A program made the position numbers and the translations under genes. This document shows, in pieces, positions 12,422 to 20,528 of a stretch of DNA of 64,000 nt. Source of the stretch: Halomonas halodenitrificans DSM 735 (GTDB taxonomy: Bacteria; Pseudomonadota; Gammaproteobacteria; Pseudomonadales; Halomonadaceae). The DNA is taken from contig NZ_KK211058.1 of the NCBI RefSeq assembly GCF_000620045.1, positions 1 to 64,000 of the forward strand. Reading direction: 5' to 3'. The first letter of the stretch is position 1; the number at the start of each line of letters is the position of its first letter. The notes beneath the pieces were generated by a model. The model was not told the DNA's origin. It ran no database searches and saw nothing but the letters and a program-made list of their open reading frames with translations.

Positions 12422-15336
12422 GTCGGCATGCTTGGCTCGGGGGCCGGCTTTCTGCTGCTGCTCTGGCTCTGCGCCCAGGCCGTGGAGCGCGGCTGGATTT
12501 CCACGCGCATCACCCGTCACCCACTGGTCTATGCCCTGGCGCTGGGCGTCTACGCCAGTGCCTGGGCGATCCATGGCAGCCTGGAACTGGCCGCCGCCTC
12601 GGGCTACGGTTATTTAACCTACTACCTGGGCATGGCCGGCGCCTTCCTCCTGGCGCCGGTGCTGCTGGTGCCGATCCAGCGCATGGTGCGCACCTACCAG
12701 CTGGCCTCGCTGGCCGACCTCTTCGCCTTTCGTTATCGCTCACGCTGGGTCGGCACCCTGATCACCCTGGTGAGCCTGCTGACGGTGCTGCCGCTGCTGG
12801 CACTGCAGGTGCAGACCATGGGCAACGCCATCTACCTGATGACCGGCGTCGCTTCGCCGGCCACTCTGGCGCTGTTCTTCTGTGTGCTGCTGGCGCTGTT
12901 CGACATGAGCTTCGTGGGTCGACGGCGCATCGATGGCCAACACGACAGCCTGCTGGCCGTGATGGCACTCTCGTCCTTGATCAAGCTGCTTGCCATGCTG
13001 GGCCTGGGCGCCTTTGCGCTGTTTGCGGTCTTCGAGGGCCCCGCCGATGTGCAGGCCTGGCTCGAGGGCCCGGGCCAGGCCTTCCAGGACAGCGTGACCC
13101 AGACCGACCCGGCCCACTGGCGCTCGCTGCTGCTGCTGTTCTTCGCCGGCTTGCTGATGCCGCATATCTTCCACCTGGTGTTTACCGAGACCCGCTCGCG
13201 CCACACCCTGTTGCAGGCCAGCTGGGCACTCCCCCTGTTCCTGTTGCTGATGGCGCTGCCGGTGCCGCTGATCCTGTGGGCCGGCCAGCGCCTGGGCATC
13301 AGCGCCTCCCTGGAGACCGCCTACCTGGCGTTCGGCCTCTCCGACTCGATAGCCCTCCAGGCCCTGGCCTTCCTCGCCGGGCTGGCCGCCACCAGCGCCA
13401 CCACGCTGCTGATCGCCCTGGCGCTATCGGGCATGCTGGTCAACCACATCTTCCTGGTGGCACACCCTCCCGAGGCTCACCATGATCTCTACCGCTGGCT
13501 GCGCTGGCTGCGCCGCGGCCTGGTCGCCGCCGTGGTGCTCGGCGGCTGGCTGTTCTACCGCCTCATCGGCGTACACCATGACCTGACCAGCCTGGGGCTG
13601 GCCGCCTTCGTGGGCATGGCCCAGTGCCTCCCGGGGCTGCTGGCCCTGCTCTACTGGCCGGGCGCCAACCGACGTGGCATGGTCTCGGGCCTGGTCGTCG
13701 GCCTGCTGGTGTGGCTCGCCGGCCTGTGGGTCCCCCTGCTGAGCGATTTGCCCGCCCTGATTGTCATTCCGCCGGGACTCGAGATGCTGAACGGTGAGCC
13801 GGCCTGGTATGCGGTCACCCTCGTCTCCCTGGCGAGCAATGCCCTGGTCCTTATCGTGGTCTCCCTGGCCACTCCGACATCCGAAGGTGAGCGCGCCGCC
13901 GCCGAGGCCTGCTCGGTGGATGCAGTCATCCGTCCCAAGCGCCTACCGCTGGAGATGGCCTCCGGAGAGGAGTTCAAGCTTCCTCTGGCCCGCGCCCTCG
14001 GCGAGTCGGTGGCGACCCGCGAGGTGGATCGTGCCCTGGATGATCTTAGCCTGTCCCCTCAGGATGGTCGTCCCTATGCGCTGCGGCGCCTGCGCGACCG
14101 TCTGCAGGCCAACCTCTCGGGACTGATGGGCCCCTCGGTGGCTCAGGACATCGTCGACCGTTACCTGCCCTATCGCCAGGATGGCCCGGGGGCCACCGAA
14201 GATATCCACTTCGTGGAGAGCCGCCTGGAGGCCTACCGCTCGCGGCTCACCGGCCTGGCGCGGGAACTCGACGGCCTGCGTCGCTATCATCGCCGCACCC
14301 TGACCCGACTACCGATGGGACTATGTGCCTTCGGCGAGGATGGCGAGCTGCTGATGTGGAATGATGCCCTGGCCCGGCTCTCGGGCATCGACGGTGGTGG
14401 CGTGATAGGTTCACGGCGCGAAAGCCTGCCAACCCCGTGGAACGAGCTGCTTGGACACATCATCGCCGAGCCCGGTACTCAGCTCTACAAGCAACCGGTG
14501 GTGCTGGACGATGCCACGCGCTATCTCAGCCTGCACAAGGCCGCGCTGGAGGGTAGCGACAGCGAACCCGGCGGCATGGTGATCCTGGTCGAGGATCACA
14601 GCGAGATGAAGTGGCTGGAAGATGAACTGGTACACGCCGCCCGCCTCGCCTCCATTGGCCAGCTGGCCGCCGGGGTCGCCCACGAGATCGGCAATCCCAT
14701 CACCGGCATCTCGTCACTGGCCCAGAATCTGCGCTACGAGACCAGCGACCCGGAAGTGCTGGAGACCACGGAGCAGATCCAGCAGCTCACCGATCGCGTC
14801 TCGCGAATCGTCTCCTCGCTGGTGGGCTTCGCCCACGGCGGTCGCCATCTCGCCGGCCGCGAGCTCGCCCCGGTGGCGATTGCCGAGATGGTCGACGAGG
14901 CCATCCACTTGATCCACCTGGCCCGCTCGAGGGACGATGTGCACTTCGACAATCGGTGTCCGGCAGCGGAGCATGTCGAAGGCGATAGCCAACGTCTGCT
15001 GCAGGTGATGGTCAACCTGCTGGGCAACGCCCGGGACGCCAGTGGCCCGGGGGATGACGTGATCATCGAGGCCACCCCGGAAGCCTCCGGGTTGAGAGTC
15101 AGCGTCACCGATGAAGGGGCAGGTATCGACACCAGCGTGCGCGATCACCTCTTCGAGCCCTTTACCACCACCAAGCCTCCCGGCGAGGGGACCGGTCTCG
15201 GCCTGCCATTGGTCTACAGCATCGTTGCCGAGCACCACGGCTCCCTCGACGTCGAGTCGCCACCGCCCGGAGCCGAACGCGGCACCCGCATCAGCCTGTG
15301 GCTACCGCATCACCAGAAGGAGGGTGAGACACCCCG

Positions 15337-15340
<4 letters not shown>
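12407..15340 (+). CDS. cbrA: Sensor histidine kinase CbrA (SLC5-type transporter fused to kinase)
   Basis: Membrane sensor of the CbrA/CbrB two-component system, which adjusts carbon and nitrogen use. Residues about 1-500 form a multi-spanning sodium/solute symporter-like domain (roughly 12-13 helices). A linker and a PAS-like segment ([21 protein letters not shown]) follow. The kinase region has H759 in [14 protein letters not shown] as phospho-acceptor, then the N-box [11 protein letters not shown], the G1 box DEGAGID and the G2 box [10 protein letters not shown]. At 977 aa it matches Pseudomonas CbrA. GGAGAAAACTCG precedes the ATG. It overlaps cbrB by four bases. Confidence 0.95.
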
Positions 15341-16728
<1,388 letters not shown>

Positions 16729-16731
16729 CCC

Positions 16732-16758
16732 TGGCCGCCCCGCGGCCACCACCTTGTT
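16732..16758 (+). terminator. Weak hairpin after cbrB
   Basis: TGGCCGC (16732-16738) pairs with GCGGCCA (16742-16748) across a 3-nt loop, immediately after the cbrB stop; ACCTTGTTTG follows. It is a modest candidate terminator for the cbrAB transcript. Confidence 0.45.
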
Positions 16759-16780
16759 TGGCCCGAACGCTCCCCCGACG

Positions 16781-16885
16781 GTCTTTGACCAAAGTGCAAT
16801 CCGCACTCCATCGCCCCTTTCATGCCCGAATATTGCTGCATTCCCGGCGATCTTCGACCAAAGTGCAACCCCCGCTCTATCGCCC
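16781..16885. repeat. Two 36-bp direct repeats with CTTTGACCAAAG dyad
   Basis: Positions 16781-16816 and 16850-16885 match at 30 of 36 bases and are 69 bp apart. Both contain GACCAAAGTGCAA and end in ATCGCCC. The first copy has the dyad CTTTG-AC-CAAAG; in the second it is CTTCG-AC-CAAAG. They lie 170-275 bp upstream of the sigma-54 promoter and could be binding sites for a regulator. They do not look coding on either strand. Confidence 0.7.
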
Positions 16886-16930
16886 TCTTCTGGTATATCG
16901 AGCCACATTTCGGGCGGTCCACGCACCATT

Positions 16931-16981
16931 TGTTACCGTCCCACACAGGTCGTGCCCGGTTACGGCACCAACCGAGTAACA
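16931..16981 (+). promoter_or_regulatory. Candidate CbrB upstream activator sites (three GTTAC motifs)
   Basis: TGTTACC (16931-16937), GGTTAC (16958-16963) and AGTAACA (16975-16981, inverted) lie 75-125 bp upstream of the sigma-54 promoter, the usual distance for NtrC-type enhancers. The outer two form a TGTTAC...GTAACA inverted pair. Assignment to CbrB is inference from position. A similar cluster lies upstream of panB. Confidence 0.5.
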
Positions 16982-17055
16982 CTCTCGTTCCTTCCCAAGG
17001 CACCCTCTCCACACTAAAAACATAACAACATGAATTTGATGGATAAATTTAAACC

Positions 17056-17071
17056 TGGCATGCCACCTGCT
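17056..17071 (+). promoter_or_regulatory. Sigma-54 promoter of the CrcZ-like RNA
   Basis: TGGCATGCCACCTGCT fits the sigma-54 consensus TGGCACG-N4-TTGCW, with the invariant GG (-24) and GC (-12) separated by exactly 10 bases. Transcription would start about 12 nt downstream of the GC, near 17082. The gene just upstream encodes CbrB, a sigma-54 activator. Confidence 0.75.
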
Positions 17072-17081
17072 ACATACAGGG

Positions 17082-17575
17082 CAAGAAAAACAAGTTCCGG
17101 CGTCATCCGCCGCCCAACACAACGACAACAGCGAAACCCGGATGACACAGGCCCACTACAACAAAGCCAAGAGGCGTGGGCCAGTGCCGTACAGGCACGA
17201 CATCAACAAGCACAATTGAAATGACGTGCCCGGCCCCTCGGCCCTAACAACAACAGCAAGACACGAGGCACCGGAAACTCAGGACGCGACGCGCCAGCCA
17301 CGCCCACAACAAGAACAAGGGGCCAGCGAGGCGCACCCCCGGAAACAACAACAACACACCGGGGGAAGGCAATTTTTGCCGTCGTGGTTGGATTATTGTT
17401 TTGAATACGAGGCGGTCTCCACCGGGAGCGCCAACAAGGATAACAACACTGCTTGCCTGAACTCCTTGGTGACTGTGGTGCGTATTCAAGGCGATGTGCC
17501 ATCACGAAGAAAAATCAAGCAGTAGGGACGCTGCAACGTTGCTTGAGGGGGAGGCCACTGGCCTCCCCCTTCTAC
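17082..17575 (+). ncRNA. crcZ: CrcZ-like Hfq/Crc-sequestering small RNA
   Basis: This non-coding interval between cbrB and pcnB is where Pseudomonas encodes CrcZ, an RNA that titrates Hfq/Crc and lifts carbon catabolite repression. Directly visible are a sigma-54 promoter upstream and A-rich CAACAA-type motifs near 17082-17094, 17115-17130, 17155-17166, 17203-17213, 17246-17261, 17305-17319, 17342-17358 and 17432-17449. Two motifs sit in hairpin loops. One stem is GTCATCCG/CGGATGAC (17102-17109 with 17139-17146). The other is CCCCCGG/CCGGGGG (17336-17342 with 17359-17365) around AAACAACAACAACACA. A GC hairpin closes the locus. No convincing ORF exists. The ends are inferred, and Hfq binding is untested. 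Confidence 0.75.
17547..17571 (+). terminator. Hairpin closing the CrcZ-like RNA locus
   Basis: A 10-bp perfect stem, GGGGGAGGCC (17547-17556) with GGCCTCCCCC (17560-17569), has a 3-nt loop. Only a short T-rich stretch (TTCTACGTCT) follows. The stem is strong and the U-tract weak. Confidence 0.6.
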
Positions 17576-17694
17576 GTCTGGGCACCAGCAGGAGGCAGGC
17601 GCCAAAGAGGTACCGGCGCTATGCAATCTCACGGGGGTCCGCTACACTCAACGCCTTTACACGCTTTCTCCGCCCTGCGAGTCGATATCGTCGC

Positions 17695-19131
17695 ATGTTC
17701 AAAGGATTTACCCGTTTTCTGCAGAGTCCCGGCGAGAGCCTGAAGTCACTGTTCGGCACCGAGGCAGCCGCCGCCGCACCCGAGGTCCGCGTCATCCCTC
17801 GCGAAGAGCACTCTGTCTCGCGCCAGCACCTCAGCGATGCTGCCCTCAAGGTCCTCTATCGGCTGCATAACGCCGGTTTCGAGGCATACCTCGTCGGGGG
17901 CTGCATACGTGACTCCCTGCTGGGACGAATGCCCAAGGACTTCGATGTGGCGACCGACGCCACACCGGAACAGGTCAAGGGCCTGTTTCGTAACTCGCGG
18001 ATCATCGGCCGCCGCTTCCGTATCGTCCACGTGCGCTTCGGCCGGGAGGTCATCGAGGTCACCACCTTCCGCGGCAAGCCCGGTGACGACCACGCCGATC
18101 ATATCGCCCAGCAGTCCGACGACGGCCTGCTGCTGCGCGACAACGTCTGGGGCAACGTCCAGGAAGACGCGCTGCGCCGCGACTTCACCATCAACGCCCT
18201 CTACTACAGTATTGCCGACTTCTCGATCCACGACTTCGCCAATGGCGTGGACGATATCGAGACACGCACCCTGCGCCTGATCGGCGAGCCGGCGACCCGC
18301 TACCGCGAGGATCCGGTGCGCATGTTGCGTGCCGTACGCTTTGCGGCCAAGCTCGACTTCCAGCTGGCCCCCTCCACCGAGGCGCCGATTCGCGAACTCG
18401 CCCCCTTGATGCTGCAGATTCCTCCGGCGCGGCTGTTCGACGAAGTGCTCAAGCTGTTCATGGCCGGCTATGGCGTCGAAACATTCCGCCTGCTGCGCCA
18501 CTACGGCCTGTTCGAGATGCTACTCCCCGAGGCTGCCGAGGCCATGGATGAGCTACCCTGGGCCGAGCGTCTGGTCGAGGAGGCCCTGGCCAGTACCGAT
18601 CGACGCATCCACGAGGAGCGCCCGGTCACACCAGCCTTCCTGTTCGCCGCCATGCTGTGGGGGCCGGTAGTGAAGCGCCAGGCCGAGCAGCAGGCCAATG
18701 GCCTGCCGCCGATTCCCGCGCTACAGGCCGCTGCCCAGCAGGTGATATCCCGCCAGCTGCAGCATGTATCGATCCCCAAGCGCTTCAGCATGCCCATGCG
18801 CGACATCTGGGATCTACAGCATCGGCTGCCGCTGCGCCGCGGCCGCCGAGCCTTCCAGACCCGTGAGCACCCACGCTTCCGTGCCGCCTACGACATGCTG
18901 CTGTTGCGCGAAGCCGCCGGTGAGCTGGCCCCGGGTCTGGGTGATTGGTGGACCGCCTTCCAGAAGGCCGACGAACACGAACAGGCACGCCTGCTCGACA
19001 AGGCCGGTGCCAATCCCGCCGGCAGCGGCAAACCCGGTCGCAAGCGGCGTCCGCGGCGCCGCAAGCCCCGTAACAGCAACAAGGGGGGCAGCTCGAACTC
19101 AAGCAACAACGGCGGCAACTTGGACTCATGA
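17695..19131 (+). CDS. pcnB: Poly(A) polymerase I
   Basis: Adds 3' poly(A) tails to RNAs and marks them for decay. The nucleotidyltransferase core shows LVGGCIRDSLLGR with the GG at residues 68-69 and the catalytic KDFDVATDA aspartates D82 and D84. The RNA-binding neck region follows, and a very basic tail (KRRPRRRKPR plus a Ser/Asn/Gly stretch) ends the protein, as in other PcnB. The frame is open upstream into the sRNA locus; this ATG gives 478 aa and the N-terminus expected from Pseudomonas homologues, although its ribosome-binding site is weak. It overlaps folK by four bases. Confidence 0.92.
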   Translation: MFKGFTRFLQSPGESLKSLFGTEAAAAAPEVRVIPREEHSVSRQHLSDAALKVLYRLHNAGFEAYLVGGCIRDSLLGRMPKDFDVATDATPEQVKGLFRNSRIIGRRFRIVHVRFGREVIEVTTFRGKPGDDHADHIAQQSDDGLLLRDNVWGNVQEDALRRDFTINALYYSIADFSIHDFANGVDDIETRTLRLIGEPATRYREDPVRMLRAVRFAAKLDFQLAPSTEAPIRELAPLMLQIPPARLFDEVLKLFMAGYGVETFRLLRHYGLFEMLLPEAAEAMDELPWAERLVEEALASTDRRIHEERPVTPAFLFAAMLWGPVVKRQAEQQANGLPPIPALQAAAQQVISRQLQHVSIPKRFSMPMRDIWDLQHRLPLRRGRRAFQTREHPRFRAAYDMLLLREAAGELAPGLGDWWTAFQKADEHEQARLLDKAGANPAGSGKPGRKRRPRRRKPRNSNKGGSSNSSNNGGNLDS

Positions 19132-19634
19132 GCCTGCACCGCGCCTGGGTCGGCCTGGGCAGCAACCTCGATGACCCTCGCCACCGGGTCGAGTCGGCCA
19201 TCGAGTCGCTCGACCGGTTGCCATTGACGCGGCGCCTCGCCGCCTCGTCGCTGTATGCGAGTCGTCCCGTCGGCCCCCAGGACCAACCCGATTTCATCAA
19301 TGCCGTGGCCTGCCTGGAAACACGCCTCTCGCCACTGGCCTTGCTCGACCAGCTCCAGGCCCTGGAACAACGCCATCGCCGGACGCGGTCTCGCCGCTGG
19401 GGCCCCCGCACCCTCGACCTGGACCTGCTACTGTTCGATGATAGCACCCTGTGCCTGCCGCGCCTGACGGTGCCACACCCGGAAATGACCCGCCGCGCCT
19501 TCGTACTGGTGCCACTGCTGGCGATGGCACCGCGGATGCGCCTGCCCGACGGGCGGCAACTGGCGGACCTGGAGGCCACACAGGCCAATAGTCTATTGAA
19601 CGAAGTGTTACCGCTCCAGGAAGACAGTCCGTAA
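19128..19634 (+). CDS. folK: 2-amino-4-hydroxy-6-hydroxymethyldihydropteridine pyrophosphokinase
   Basis: Folate synthesis enzyme that transfers pyrophosphate from ATP to hydroxymethyl-dihydropterin, supplying the FolP substrate. The HPPK signature is seen as RSRRWGPRTLDLDLLLFD, with PHPEMTRRAFVL after it. The length of 168 aa is standard. It is translationally coupled to pcnB (ATGA) and followed by panB, as in Pseudomonas. Its last codons contain the first of the GTTACC motifs. Confidence 0.93.
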   Translation: MSLHRAWVGLGSNLDDPRHRVESAIESLDRLPLTRRLAASSLYASRPVGPQDQPDFINAVACLETRLSPLALLDQLQALEQRHRRTRSRRWGPRTLDLDLLLFDDSTLCLPRLTVPHPEMTRRAFVLVPLLAMAPRMRLPDGRQLADLEATQANSLLNEVLPLQEDSP

Positions 19635-19685
19635 GTGTTACCCATCGACACAGCATGGCCATTCAGGTAACAATCGCGAGTTACA
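19603..19685. promoter_or_regulatory. Phased GTTACC motif array upstream of panB
   Basis: TGTTACC at 19606-19612 and 19636-19642, inverted GGTAACA at 19666-19672 and AGTTACA at 19679-19685. The first three start exactly 30 bp apart. The first two are part of a 10-bp direct repeat, AAGTGTTACC. The array is likely an operator for a DNA-binding protein acting on panB. A similar cluster precedes the CrcZ-like gene. Confidence 0.5.
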
Positions 19686-19736
19686 CGGGCCGGCACCCCA
19701 TGCCGCGCTCCGACGTCACAAACGAGAGAGCACGCT

Positions 19737-20528
19737 ATGAAACCCATCACCCTGAGCACGCTGCAGGCCTACAAGCGCGCCGGTGACACCTTCAGCTCCC
19801 TGACCGCCTACGATGCCTCCTTCGCCAGGGCCGCCAGCGATGCCGGCATCGACGTCCTGCTGGTCGGTGACTCCCTGGGCATGGTCCTGCAGGGCCATAC
19901 CAGCACGCTGCCGGTCACACTGGAGGAAATCTGCTACCACACCCGCTGCGTGGCCCGGGGCAAGGGTGCCAGCCTGCTGATGGTCGACCTGCCCTTCATG
20001 GGTAACGCCAGCACCGAGCGCCTGCTGGAAAATGCCGGCGAGCTGATGCGGGCCGGCGCCGAGCTCGTCAAGGTGGAGGGCGAGGCCTGGATGGCCGATG
20101 GCATCCGTGAACTGACTCGGCGTGGCGTGCCGGTGTGTGTCCACCTGGGGCTGACGCCTCAGACCGTCTACCAGCTCGGCGGCTACAAGGTGCAGGGCCG
20201 CGATGCCGATCGCGCCAGCCAGATCCTCGAGGACGCCCGCATCCTGGTCGAGGCCGGCGCCTCGGTCATCCTGCTGGAGTGCGTGCCGGCCGAGCTGGGC
20301 CGCGCCATCACCGAGGCCCTCGACGTGCCGGTGATCGGTATCGGTGCCGGCCCCGATACCGATGGCCAGATCCTGGTCATGCACGATGTGCTGGACGTCA
20401 CGCCCGGCCGCAAGCCACGCTTCGTCAAGAACTTCATGGCTGACGCCGAGGACATTCACGGTGCCTTCCGTCGCTACCATGAGGACGTCAAGGCGCGGCG
20501 GTTCCCCGCCGAGGAGCACTGTTTTTAA
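19737..20528 (+). CDS. panB: 3-methyl-2-oxobutanoate hydroxymethyltransferase
   Basis: First step of pantothenate synthesis: transfers a hydroxymethyl group from methylene-tetrahydrofolate to alpha-ketoisovalerate, giving ketopantoate. The TIM-barrel signatures are seen as LLVGDSLGMVLQGH, DLPFMGNAS and VIGIGAGPDTDGQILVMHD. The length of 263 aa is typical. It starts a panB-panC-panD run; the folate-dependent cofactor links it to folK next door. Confidence 0.95.
   Translation: MKPITLSTLQAYKRAGDTFSSLTAYDASFARAASDAGIDVLLVGDSLGMVLQGHTSTLPVTLEEICYHTRCVARGKGASLLMVDLPFMGNASTERLLENAGELMRAGAELVKVEGEAWMADGIRELTRRGVPVCVHLGLTPQTVYQLGGYKVQGRDADRASQILEDARILVEAGASVILLECVPAELGRAITEALDVPVIGIGAGPDTDGQILVMHDVLDVTPGRKPRFVKNFMADAEDIHGAFRRYHEDVKARRFPAEEHCF

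Follow-up and report, generated by a model that had tools for sequence, protein, structure and literature searches.

The 966-bp gap between cbrB and pcnB in Halomonas halodenitrificans DSM 735 very probably encodes an RNA that is driven by CbrB and sigma-54 and works as an Hfq/Crc decoy in the manner of CrcZ. The gap lies in a 64,000-nt stretch of DNA, referred to here as the window, and it carries an operator, a promoter, a cluster of A-rich motifs and a structured plus-strand RNA, which are conserved among relatives; crc and hfq are both present in the genome. From these features we infer transcription, Hfq/Crc binding and an effect on catabolite repression. An untranslated RNA of ~490 nt would start at the sigma-54 promoter, with CbrB activating from hexamers ~125 and ~80 bp upstream. 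Under carbon limitation, CbrA and CbrB would raise the level of this RNA, whose A-rich loops would sequester Hfq and Hfq/Crc and so free the mRNAs of less-preferred carbon pathways. On sequence grounds, the RNA is best described as a positional counterpart of CrcZ that falls outside the CrcZ sequence family of Rfam.

The gene order in the window is gluQ, a 58-aa cbrX-like ORF, cbrA, cbrB, the gap, pcnB, folK, and the putative panB and panC (Table 1). The gap runs from the cbrB stop at 16728 to the pcnB start, which was taken as 17695 in a frame that is open further upstream. The genes gluQ, the small ORF, cbrA, cbrB, pcnB and folK were all recovered by tblastn in seven fetched loci, i.e., Litchfieldella (L001), Halomonas maura (L006), Pseudomonas fildesensis (L003), Serpens (L007), two Gilvimarinus (L004 and L005) and a Cellvibrionaceae MAG (L008), and the gluQ-cbrX-cbrA-cbrB-gap-pcnB-folK order is common to the window and P. 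fildesensis. The cbrX-like ORF, which has no family in Pfam or NCBIfam, is 45.6% and 49.1% identical to the frame in the same place in P. fildesensis and Serpens, respectively. CbrA is 50.7% identical to its P. fildesensis counterpart over residues 1-969, and its transporter half received no Pfam call. CbrB shares 62.0% and 65.2% identity with the orthologues of P. fildesensis and Serpens, 81-82% with those of Litchfieldella and H. maura, and 59-65% across the five remaining fetched loci, P. fildesensis and Serpens included; as judged by the identity of 62-65% to Pseudomonas and Serpens, the window protein is the CbrB orthologue and not an NtrC paralogue.

Table 1. Features of the cbrB-pcnB locus, in positions of the window
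Feature	Coordinates	Strand	Basis or remark
cbrX-like small ORF, 58 aa	12177..12353	+	upstream of cbrA; name from synteny
cbrA, sensor kinase, 977 aa	12407..15340	+	Pfam HisKA and HATPase_c
cbrB, sigma-54 activator	15337..16728	+	Pfam Response_reg and Sigma54_activat
GCACCA element	16923..16928	+	-133 from sigma-54 box
CbrB subsite F, TGTTAC	16931..16936	+	exact published hexamer, -125 from box
GGTTAC, F-type hexamer with one mismatch	16958..16963	+	between outer subsites; outside family consensus
CbrB subsite R, GTAACA	16976..16981	+	exact published hexamer, -80 from box
Sigma-54 promoter TGGCATGCCACCTGCT (TGGCATG-CCAC-CTGCT, GG-N10-GC)	17056..17071	+	predicted start 17083
Predicted CrcZ-like RNA, ~490 nt	17083..17575	+	motif counts, fold
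A-rich (ARN-type) motif cluster	17158..17446	+	seven islands: 17158-17165, 17204-17210, 17247-17254, 17306-17315, 17345-17355, 17432-17438, 17440-17446
Conserved 3' RNA domain	17378..17523	+	15-bp stem, 17395-17409 with 17481-17495
Terminator-like GC hairpin	17546..17570	+	inverted repeat, 12/12 pairs
pcnB, poly(A) polymerase	17695..19131	+	TIGR01942, 533 bits

The GG-N10-GC promoter that the initial annotation had placed in the gap was confirmed at 17056-17071, and the predicted RNA start was placed with the Rfam CrcZ start of P. fildesensis as the model. The CbrB subsites were absent from that first description, as was the 3' RNA domain. Passages of PMC6296734 describe subsites F, R1 and R2 upstream in Pseudomonas and give those of P. 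putida as TGTTAC (F) and GTAACA or GTAACG (R). In P. fildesensis the two lie at -124 (TGTTAC) and -82 (GTAACG), a spacing like that of the window. The middle subsite R1 of Pseudomonas has no match in the window, where GGTTAC is found instead, leaving two of the three subsites.

The conservation of this arrangement was assessed over 83 cbrB loci, comprising eight from identified organisms, the window's own and 74 from further genomes (one genome, G187, is counted twice, as L106 and L126, and the two identified halomonads may recur among the 74). The counted set consists of the 81 loci with pcnB downstream of cbrB, leaving out L002, from a MAG, and L170, from genome G024. Both hexamers, which were taken from the literature, occur exactly upstream of the box in 81/81 gaps, compared with 4.4% of shuffled gaps for F, 4.3% for R and 0.2% for both; F lies at -126 to -123 in 77 of the 81, and GTAACA at -82 to -79 in 76. 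The sigma-54 box scored 15/15 in 77 loci and 14 in the remaining four, whereas 6 of 4050 shuffles scored 15 and 160 of 4050 at least 14, a score that is partly fitted because it was relaxed to TGGCAYR after the first table. An earlier control at a loose threshold, passed by 987 of 1620 shuffles, was uninformative, and the 14/15-point threshold was therefore used instead. A three-subsite operator was rejected as a general rule: any three hexamers at the published spacing, with at most one mismatch and in any orientation, were found in just 7 of the 81 gaps (one of them F-R-R), with shuffles at 1%. The conserved part of the operator is, judged across these gaps, the outer hexamer pair. Lack of motif conservation in related genomes, which the initial annotation had regarded as refuting its reading, was not seen, the arrangement being kept in every one of the loci with pcnB after cbrB.

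Two observations concern the surroundings of the operator. A 48-nt direct repeat between cbrB and the operator (16774-16821 and 16843-16890, 81% identical), which includes GACCAAAGTGCAA, may partly account for the distance of the box from cbrB, which is 327 nt in the window and closer to 220-240 nt among most relatives. In addition, the Rfam family P36 (RF01679), a Pseudomonas sRNA, overlaps the CbrB subsites upstream of crcZ in three loci (L003:5977-6037, L252:2937-2999 and L253:2016-2077), and the conservation of P36 may reflect the CbrB operator.

Downstream of the promoter, the claim of at least seven CAACAA-type motifs was borne out: exactly seven, two of them overlapping, start at 17159, 17204, 17248, 17307, 17346, 17349 and 17432, all on one strand. 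Dinucleotide shuffles of 17083-17575 contain 0.81 on average, and none of 1000 reaches seven; the motif occurs neither on the minus strand of this interval nor in 16729-17055. Strict AAYAAYAA sites number just three in the window RNA. Counted over all 81 loci, A[CT]AA[CT]AA reaches 9.2 per 500 nt downstream of the promoter versus 0.23 upstream of it, with no locus reversed. The (AAY)n repeats of the RNA can be read as ARN triplets, and such triplets are the preference of the Hfq distal face (passages of PMC9890229).

The predicted RNA folds much better than its shuffles (z -6.6, with 0/100 shuffles as good), and the two A-rich hairpins pointed out in the initial annotation, 17102-17146 and 17336-17365, are both present in the predicted fold. 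Of the seven A-rich islands in the window, four fall within hairpin loops versus a mean of 1.8 and a maximum of 5 with shuffled flanks, which is not significant alone. Loop display was further compared over 18 loci picked for diversity, with 12 shuffles per locus. In the 14 family loci, 70 of 101 islands are in hairpin loops of the minimum-energy fold, compared with ~23.5 with shuffled flanks; in P. fildesensis, Serpens, Gilvimarinus L004 and the Cellvibrionaceae MAG, 3 of 28 are in loops versus ~5 in shuffles, and loop display is therefore not a general CrcZ feature.

An alignment of the 3' domain was built from 34 of the 39 sequences extracted. Pairing holds at 97.8% over the 23 pairs of the domain and at no more than 44% when slid, in a structure that was predicted from the same alignment as tested, which favours pairing. 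There are 17 two-sided changes versus 3.8 in shuffles, all in the inner helix, and 10 of the 15 long-stem pairs carry no covariation signal because they are invariant across the alignment. Pairs that are U-G in most sequences could form in the plus-strand RNA alone. Together with the covariation, their retention indicates selection acting on the RNA of the plus strand. One match per genome to a covariance model of the domain was obtained in 198 of the 201 family genomes, the exceptions being G017, G018 and G024.

The prominence of this domain raises the question of whether the RNA acts mainly through it, as a base-pairing sRNA or as a platform for another protein, with the A-rich motifs just recruiting Hfq as a chaperone. 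The domain, with its near-invariant 15-bp stem, is the best conserved section of the RNA; it was not found outside the family (among 38 sources just the window matches, and the next match has an E of 0.39), and it is kept in 35 of the 37 family genomes without a CbrB match. However, the A-rich clusters, rather than the 3' domain, are common to Pseudomonas, Gilvimarinus and other families, and A-rich motifs also precede pcnB in G017 and G018, two genomes with no match to the domain. We consider action mainly through the 3' domain improbable, and titration of Hfq and Crc by the A-rich motifs the preferred reading.

It is very unlikely that the gap serves pcnB as a long 5' leader or a cis-element instead of encoding a separate RNA. 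Such a leader would fit the presence of pcnB downstream in 81 of the 83 loci, but a terminator-like hairpin precedes pcnB in 81/81 loci by a permissive test with no control run beside it, while a stricter scan (at least 5 T in 8) did not call the hairpin of the window. The terminal GC hairpin of the initial annotation is indeed real, with 12/12 pairs, although the T tail that follows it (TTCTAC) is weak. With the permissive test, the median RNA length over the 81 loci is 496 nt. Further against a pcnB leader, the operator, promoter and A-rich cluster of genome G024 stand together (L190, C13:107185) on a different contig from both cbrB and pcnB; an internal TAG is reported in the CbrB match of that genome. 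As for coding potential, the gap had been said to have no credible ORF; open frames of 64-100 aa are present within the predicted RNA on both strands. That these frames encode a small protein is scarcely credible, since conservation tracks base pairing and the spacing of the two strands of the 3' stem among 39 loci falls into all three phases (10, 15 and 14), so that there is no conserved reading frame in this region.

A search with the Rfam CrcZ model (RF01675) gave no match in 15000-20000 at E up to 5. Membership in this family was rejected, the best match in the genome reaching 8.5 bits (E 9, at 17306-17489) against a gathering threshold of 95 bits; the same search gives below-cut-off matches in 9 of 14 control genomes. 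The positive controls L003, L007, L252 and L253 scored 349.6, 272.1, 320.4 and 322.3 bits, respectively, L242 of family f2 just passes with 102.5 bits, and no match was found in L001, L006, L004, L008 or L249. Because of its Rfam CrcZ matches, family f21 is probably Pseudomonadaceae. When the RNA was compared directly by BLAST with two CrcZ of the Pseudomonas type, only short pieces aligned, with a best E of 0.004.

The likeness to CrcZ of Pseudomonas and Azotobacter is one of arrangement: the RNAs share the cbrB-pcnB position, a sigma-54 promoter, TGTTAC and GTAAC(A/G) subsites ~125 and ~80 bp upstream, many A-rich Hfq motifs, a terminator-like hairpin, and the company of Crc and Hfq. They differ in that the window RNA is ~490 nt, compared with the 398 positions of the Rfam model, without an Rfam-level sequence match, and in that the halomonad-type RNA shows its motifs in hairpin loops, has an extra 3' domain, and leaves the middle subsite unmatched. 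By sequence, the RNA fits the CrcZ functional or syntenic class in its position, promoter, operator (two of three subsites), motifs and Crc/Hfq. The proposal that the same catabolite-repression relay works in this organism is well supported, as position, promoter, operator geometry, motifs, Crc and Hfq all match the CrcZ relay.

Decoys of CsrA/RsmA such as CsrB and RsmZ titrate a global translational regulator through many protein-binding motifs in loops. The logic of titration is the same here; however, the motif is A-rich (for the Hfq distal face) instead of GGA, and the activator would be CbrB instead of GacA. For A. vinelandii CrcZ/Y, six A-rich Hfq motifs are spoken of in passages of PMC6292655. 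CrcY and CrcX are CbrB/sigma-54-driven antagonists of Crc/Hfq, according to parts of PMC8871633, whereas the window RNA adjoins cbrB and is the sole match of its kind in its genome. The sRNA99 of Acinetobacter baumannii is likened to CrcZ by its authors and shows the same Hfq RIL-seq behaviour; however, it has only three A-rich motifs, and CbrB has 0 occurrences in PMC12802169.

The genome has one Hfq match (L177), which is close to P. aeruginosa Hfq and has F at position 25, compared with Y in P. aeruginosa. We take residue 25 to belong to the face that binds A-rich RNA, where Y25 presumably matters. Among five Exo_endo_phos matches in the genome, the one at C4:136192 sits between the ribonuclease PH gene rph and pyrE, the neighbourhood that crc also occupies in Pseudomonas. 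The best PDB matches of this candidate are P. aeruginosa Crc (1.4e-74) and 2myi (1.9e-74), which is named exodeoxyribonuclease III and which we take to be Pseudomonas Crc, followed by the next sequence not called Crc at 2.5e-62. NCBIfam labels the candidate exodeoxyribonuclease III, above cut-off, which, like the F at position 25 of Hfq, counts against the decoy reading. The candidate is matched in 201/201 family genomes (E <= 1e-40). Both proteins are encoded in the genome, with Crc assigned by its best match and its neighbours.

A target pattern, AAYAAYAANRGN(3-13)ATG, gives 8 matches at 7 places in the genome, compared with 2 in a reversed control. Three of these places precede long frames, i.e., a LamB maltoporin, an SSF symporter and a Xan_ur permease; the others comprise one early-broken porin-like frame (by eye), one 42-aa ORF and two with nothing gene-like. 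The lamB, SSF symporter and Xan_ur permease genes are candidate targets, small in number, and sugar uptake would fit catabolite control. In the porin-like frame (L288, G000:C9 ~57000), the A-rich motif lies before the start, and the frame is apparently broken early by a short tandem duplication, which may be an assembly error; a LamB-type gene lies ~11 kb away on the same contig.

Within the family, CbrB is found (E <= 1e-120) in 164 of 201 genomes and 17 of 24 genera. The strict operator-promoter pattern has a single match in each of 142 of the 201 genomes and 0 in the reversed control, and it divides by CbrB, with 142/164 genomes that have a CbrB match against 0/37 that do not. The remaining 22 CbrB genomes lack the strict pattern; the nine of them examined (G002, G006, G022, G026, G030, G080, G086, G165 and G166) all have TGTTAC and GTAACA downstream of cbrB and differ in hexamer spacing or have a variant box.

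In the order, CbrB (E <= 1e-130) is found in 290 of 390 sampled genomes and 115 of 142 genera. The separation of orthologues from paralogues by such a threshold was checked in seven family genomes, where the best CbrB matches are 6e-153 or better (with none in G105) and all others 8e-94 or worse. Thirty loci from 25 further families, drawn from the best-scoring listed places and not at random, were also examined. In 28 of them cbrA lies upstream, and the other two (L243 and L271) have too little upstream DNA; 26 have a sigma-54 box, 24 have at least two CbrB hexamers before it, and 24 have at least three A-rich motifs after it. All three features are present in 22 of the 30 loci and 19 of the 25 families, one of which (f21) is probably Pseudomonadaceae, the loci without the full set being L245, L246, L247, L257, L258, L261, L262 and L266. 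The same test gave 0/69 downstream of NtrC-type paralogues (72 loci, of which three with <500 nt were dropped) and 0/3000 in mononucleotide-shuffled gaps. Between cbrB and pcnB, L265 (f38), L248 (f14), L263 (f37) and L270 (f47) seem to carry the operator, promoter and A-rich cluster in tandem copies, perhaps up to four by eye in L265; in L248 and L265 the full test is passed by two copies each. L246 (f8) and L261 (f36) have a CbrB orthologue, but the stretch fetched downstream contains no pcnB and no A-rich RNA arrangement; such genomes could reveal a role of CbrB without a nearby RNA.

Of the 37 family genomes without CbrB, defined as having no match at E <= 1e-120, 35 retain the 3' domain of the RNA. 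For G105, one of the 37, a search at a looser threshold yielded NtrC-type matches only. Eight CbrB-less loci, one per genus, were viewed widely: gluQ is followed by an A-rich region and then pcnB, with no recognised gene in the gluQ place in G018, and cbrX, cbrA and cbrB were not found there by tblastn. In the 190 nt before the box, which for CbrB-less loci is the best one preceding the A-rich cluster, TGTTAC occurs in 1/19 and GTAACA in 0/19 CbrB-less loci (eight genera), compared with 76/76 each in family loci with CbrB. GCACCA, in contrast, occurs there in 19/19 CbrB-less and 55/76 CbrB-plus loci, where shuffles would expect 1.3 and 5.8, respectively, and it lies at -135 to -132 in 14 of the 19 and 53 of the 76. 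This element, or TGGTGC, is also found within 300 nt of 4/4 P-II genes with an upstream sigma-54-like box and 0/7 without one; three of these boxes were identified by visual inspection, and one copy of the element in L299 shares positions with the box.

The kept GCACCA at CbrB-less loci suggests a second, possibly NtrC-like, input. Going by the NtrC consensus, NtrC is a candidate reader of the element; a complete NtrC palindrome was not found by eye upstream of the RNA in CbrB-less loci, where just the GCACCA half is present, and NtrC therefore stays a lead. A tentative extension, which we think somewhat doubtful, is that the relay has the decoy RNA rather than CbrAB as its conserved core, with an exchangeable input: a second activator, plausibly NtrC, would read GCACCA ~134 bp 5' of the sigma-54 box and would be the sole driver in the CbrAB-less lineages (eight genera of the family), so that nitrogen status rather than carbon status would release catabolite repression there.

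CbrAB with an adjacent crcZ is called unique to Pseudomonadaceae in parts of a review (PMC8871633), and CbrAB is called exclusive to Pseudomonads in the abstract of PMC6296734. The wide occurrence of CbrAB in the order, as judged by the matches above, is at odds with the exclusivity stated in those papers. Among the papers, mostly open-access, that were listed by our literature searches on Halomonas and other genera, none was seen to describe a CbrB-linked CrcZ outside Pseudomonadaceae. As far as these searches reach, three findings are new: the spread of the arrangement across the order, the RNA architecture of the halomonad type, and the survival of the RNA in lineages without CbrAB.

Because numerous further families of the order have the operator, promoter and A-rich RNA region, tests of Hfq/Crc catabolite control become feasible in Halomonas strains and in marine bacteria that degrade polysaccharides, such as Gilvimarinus. 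The lineages that lack CbrAB and keep the RNA would offer a natural experiment on the purpose of the decoy and on its possible commanders.
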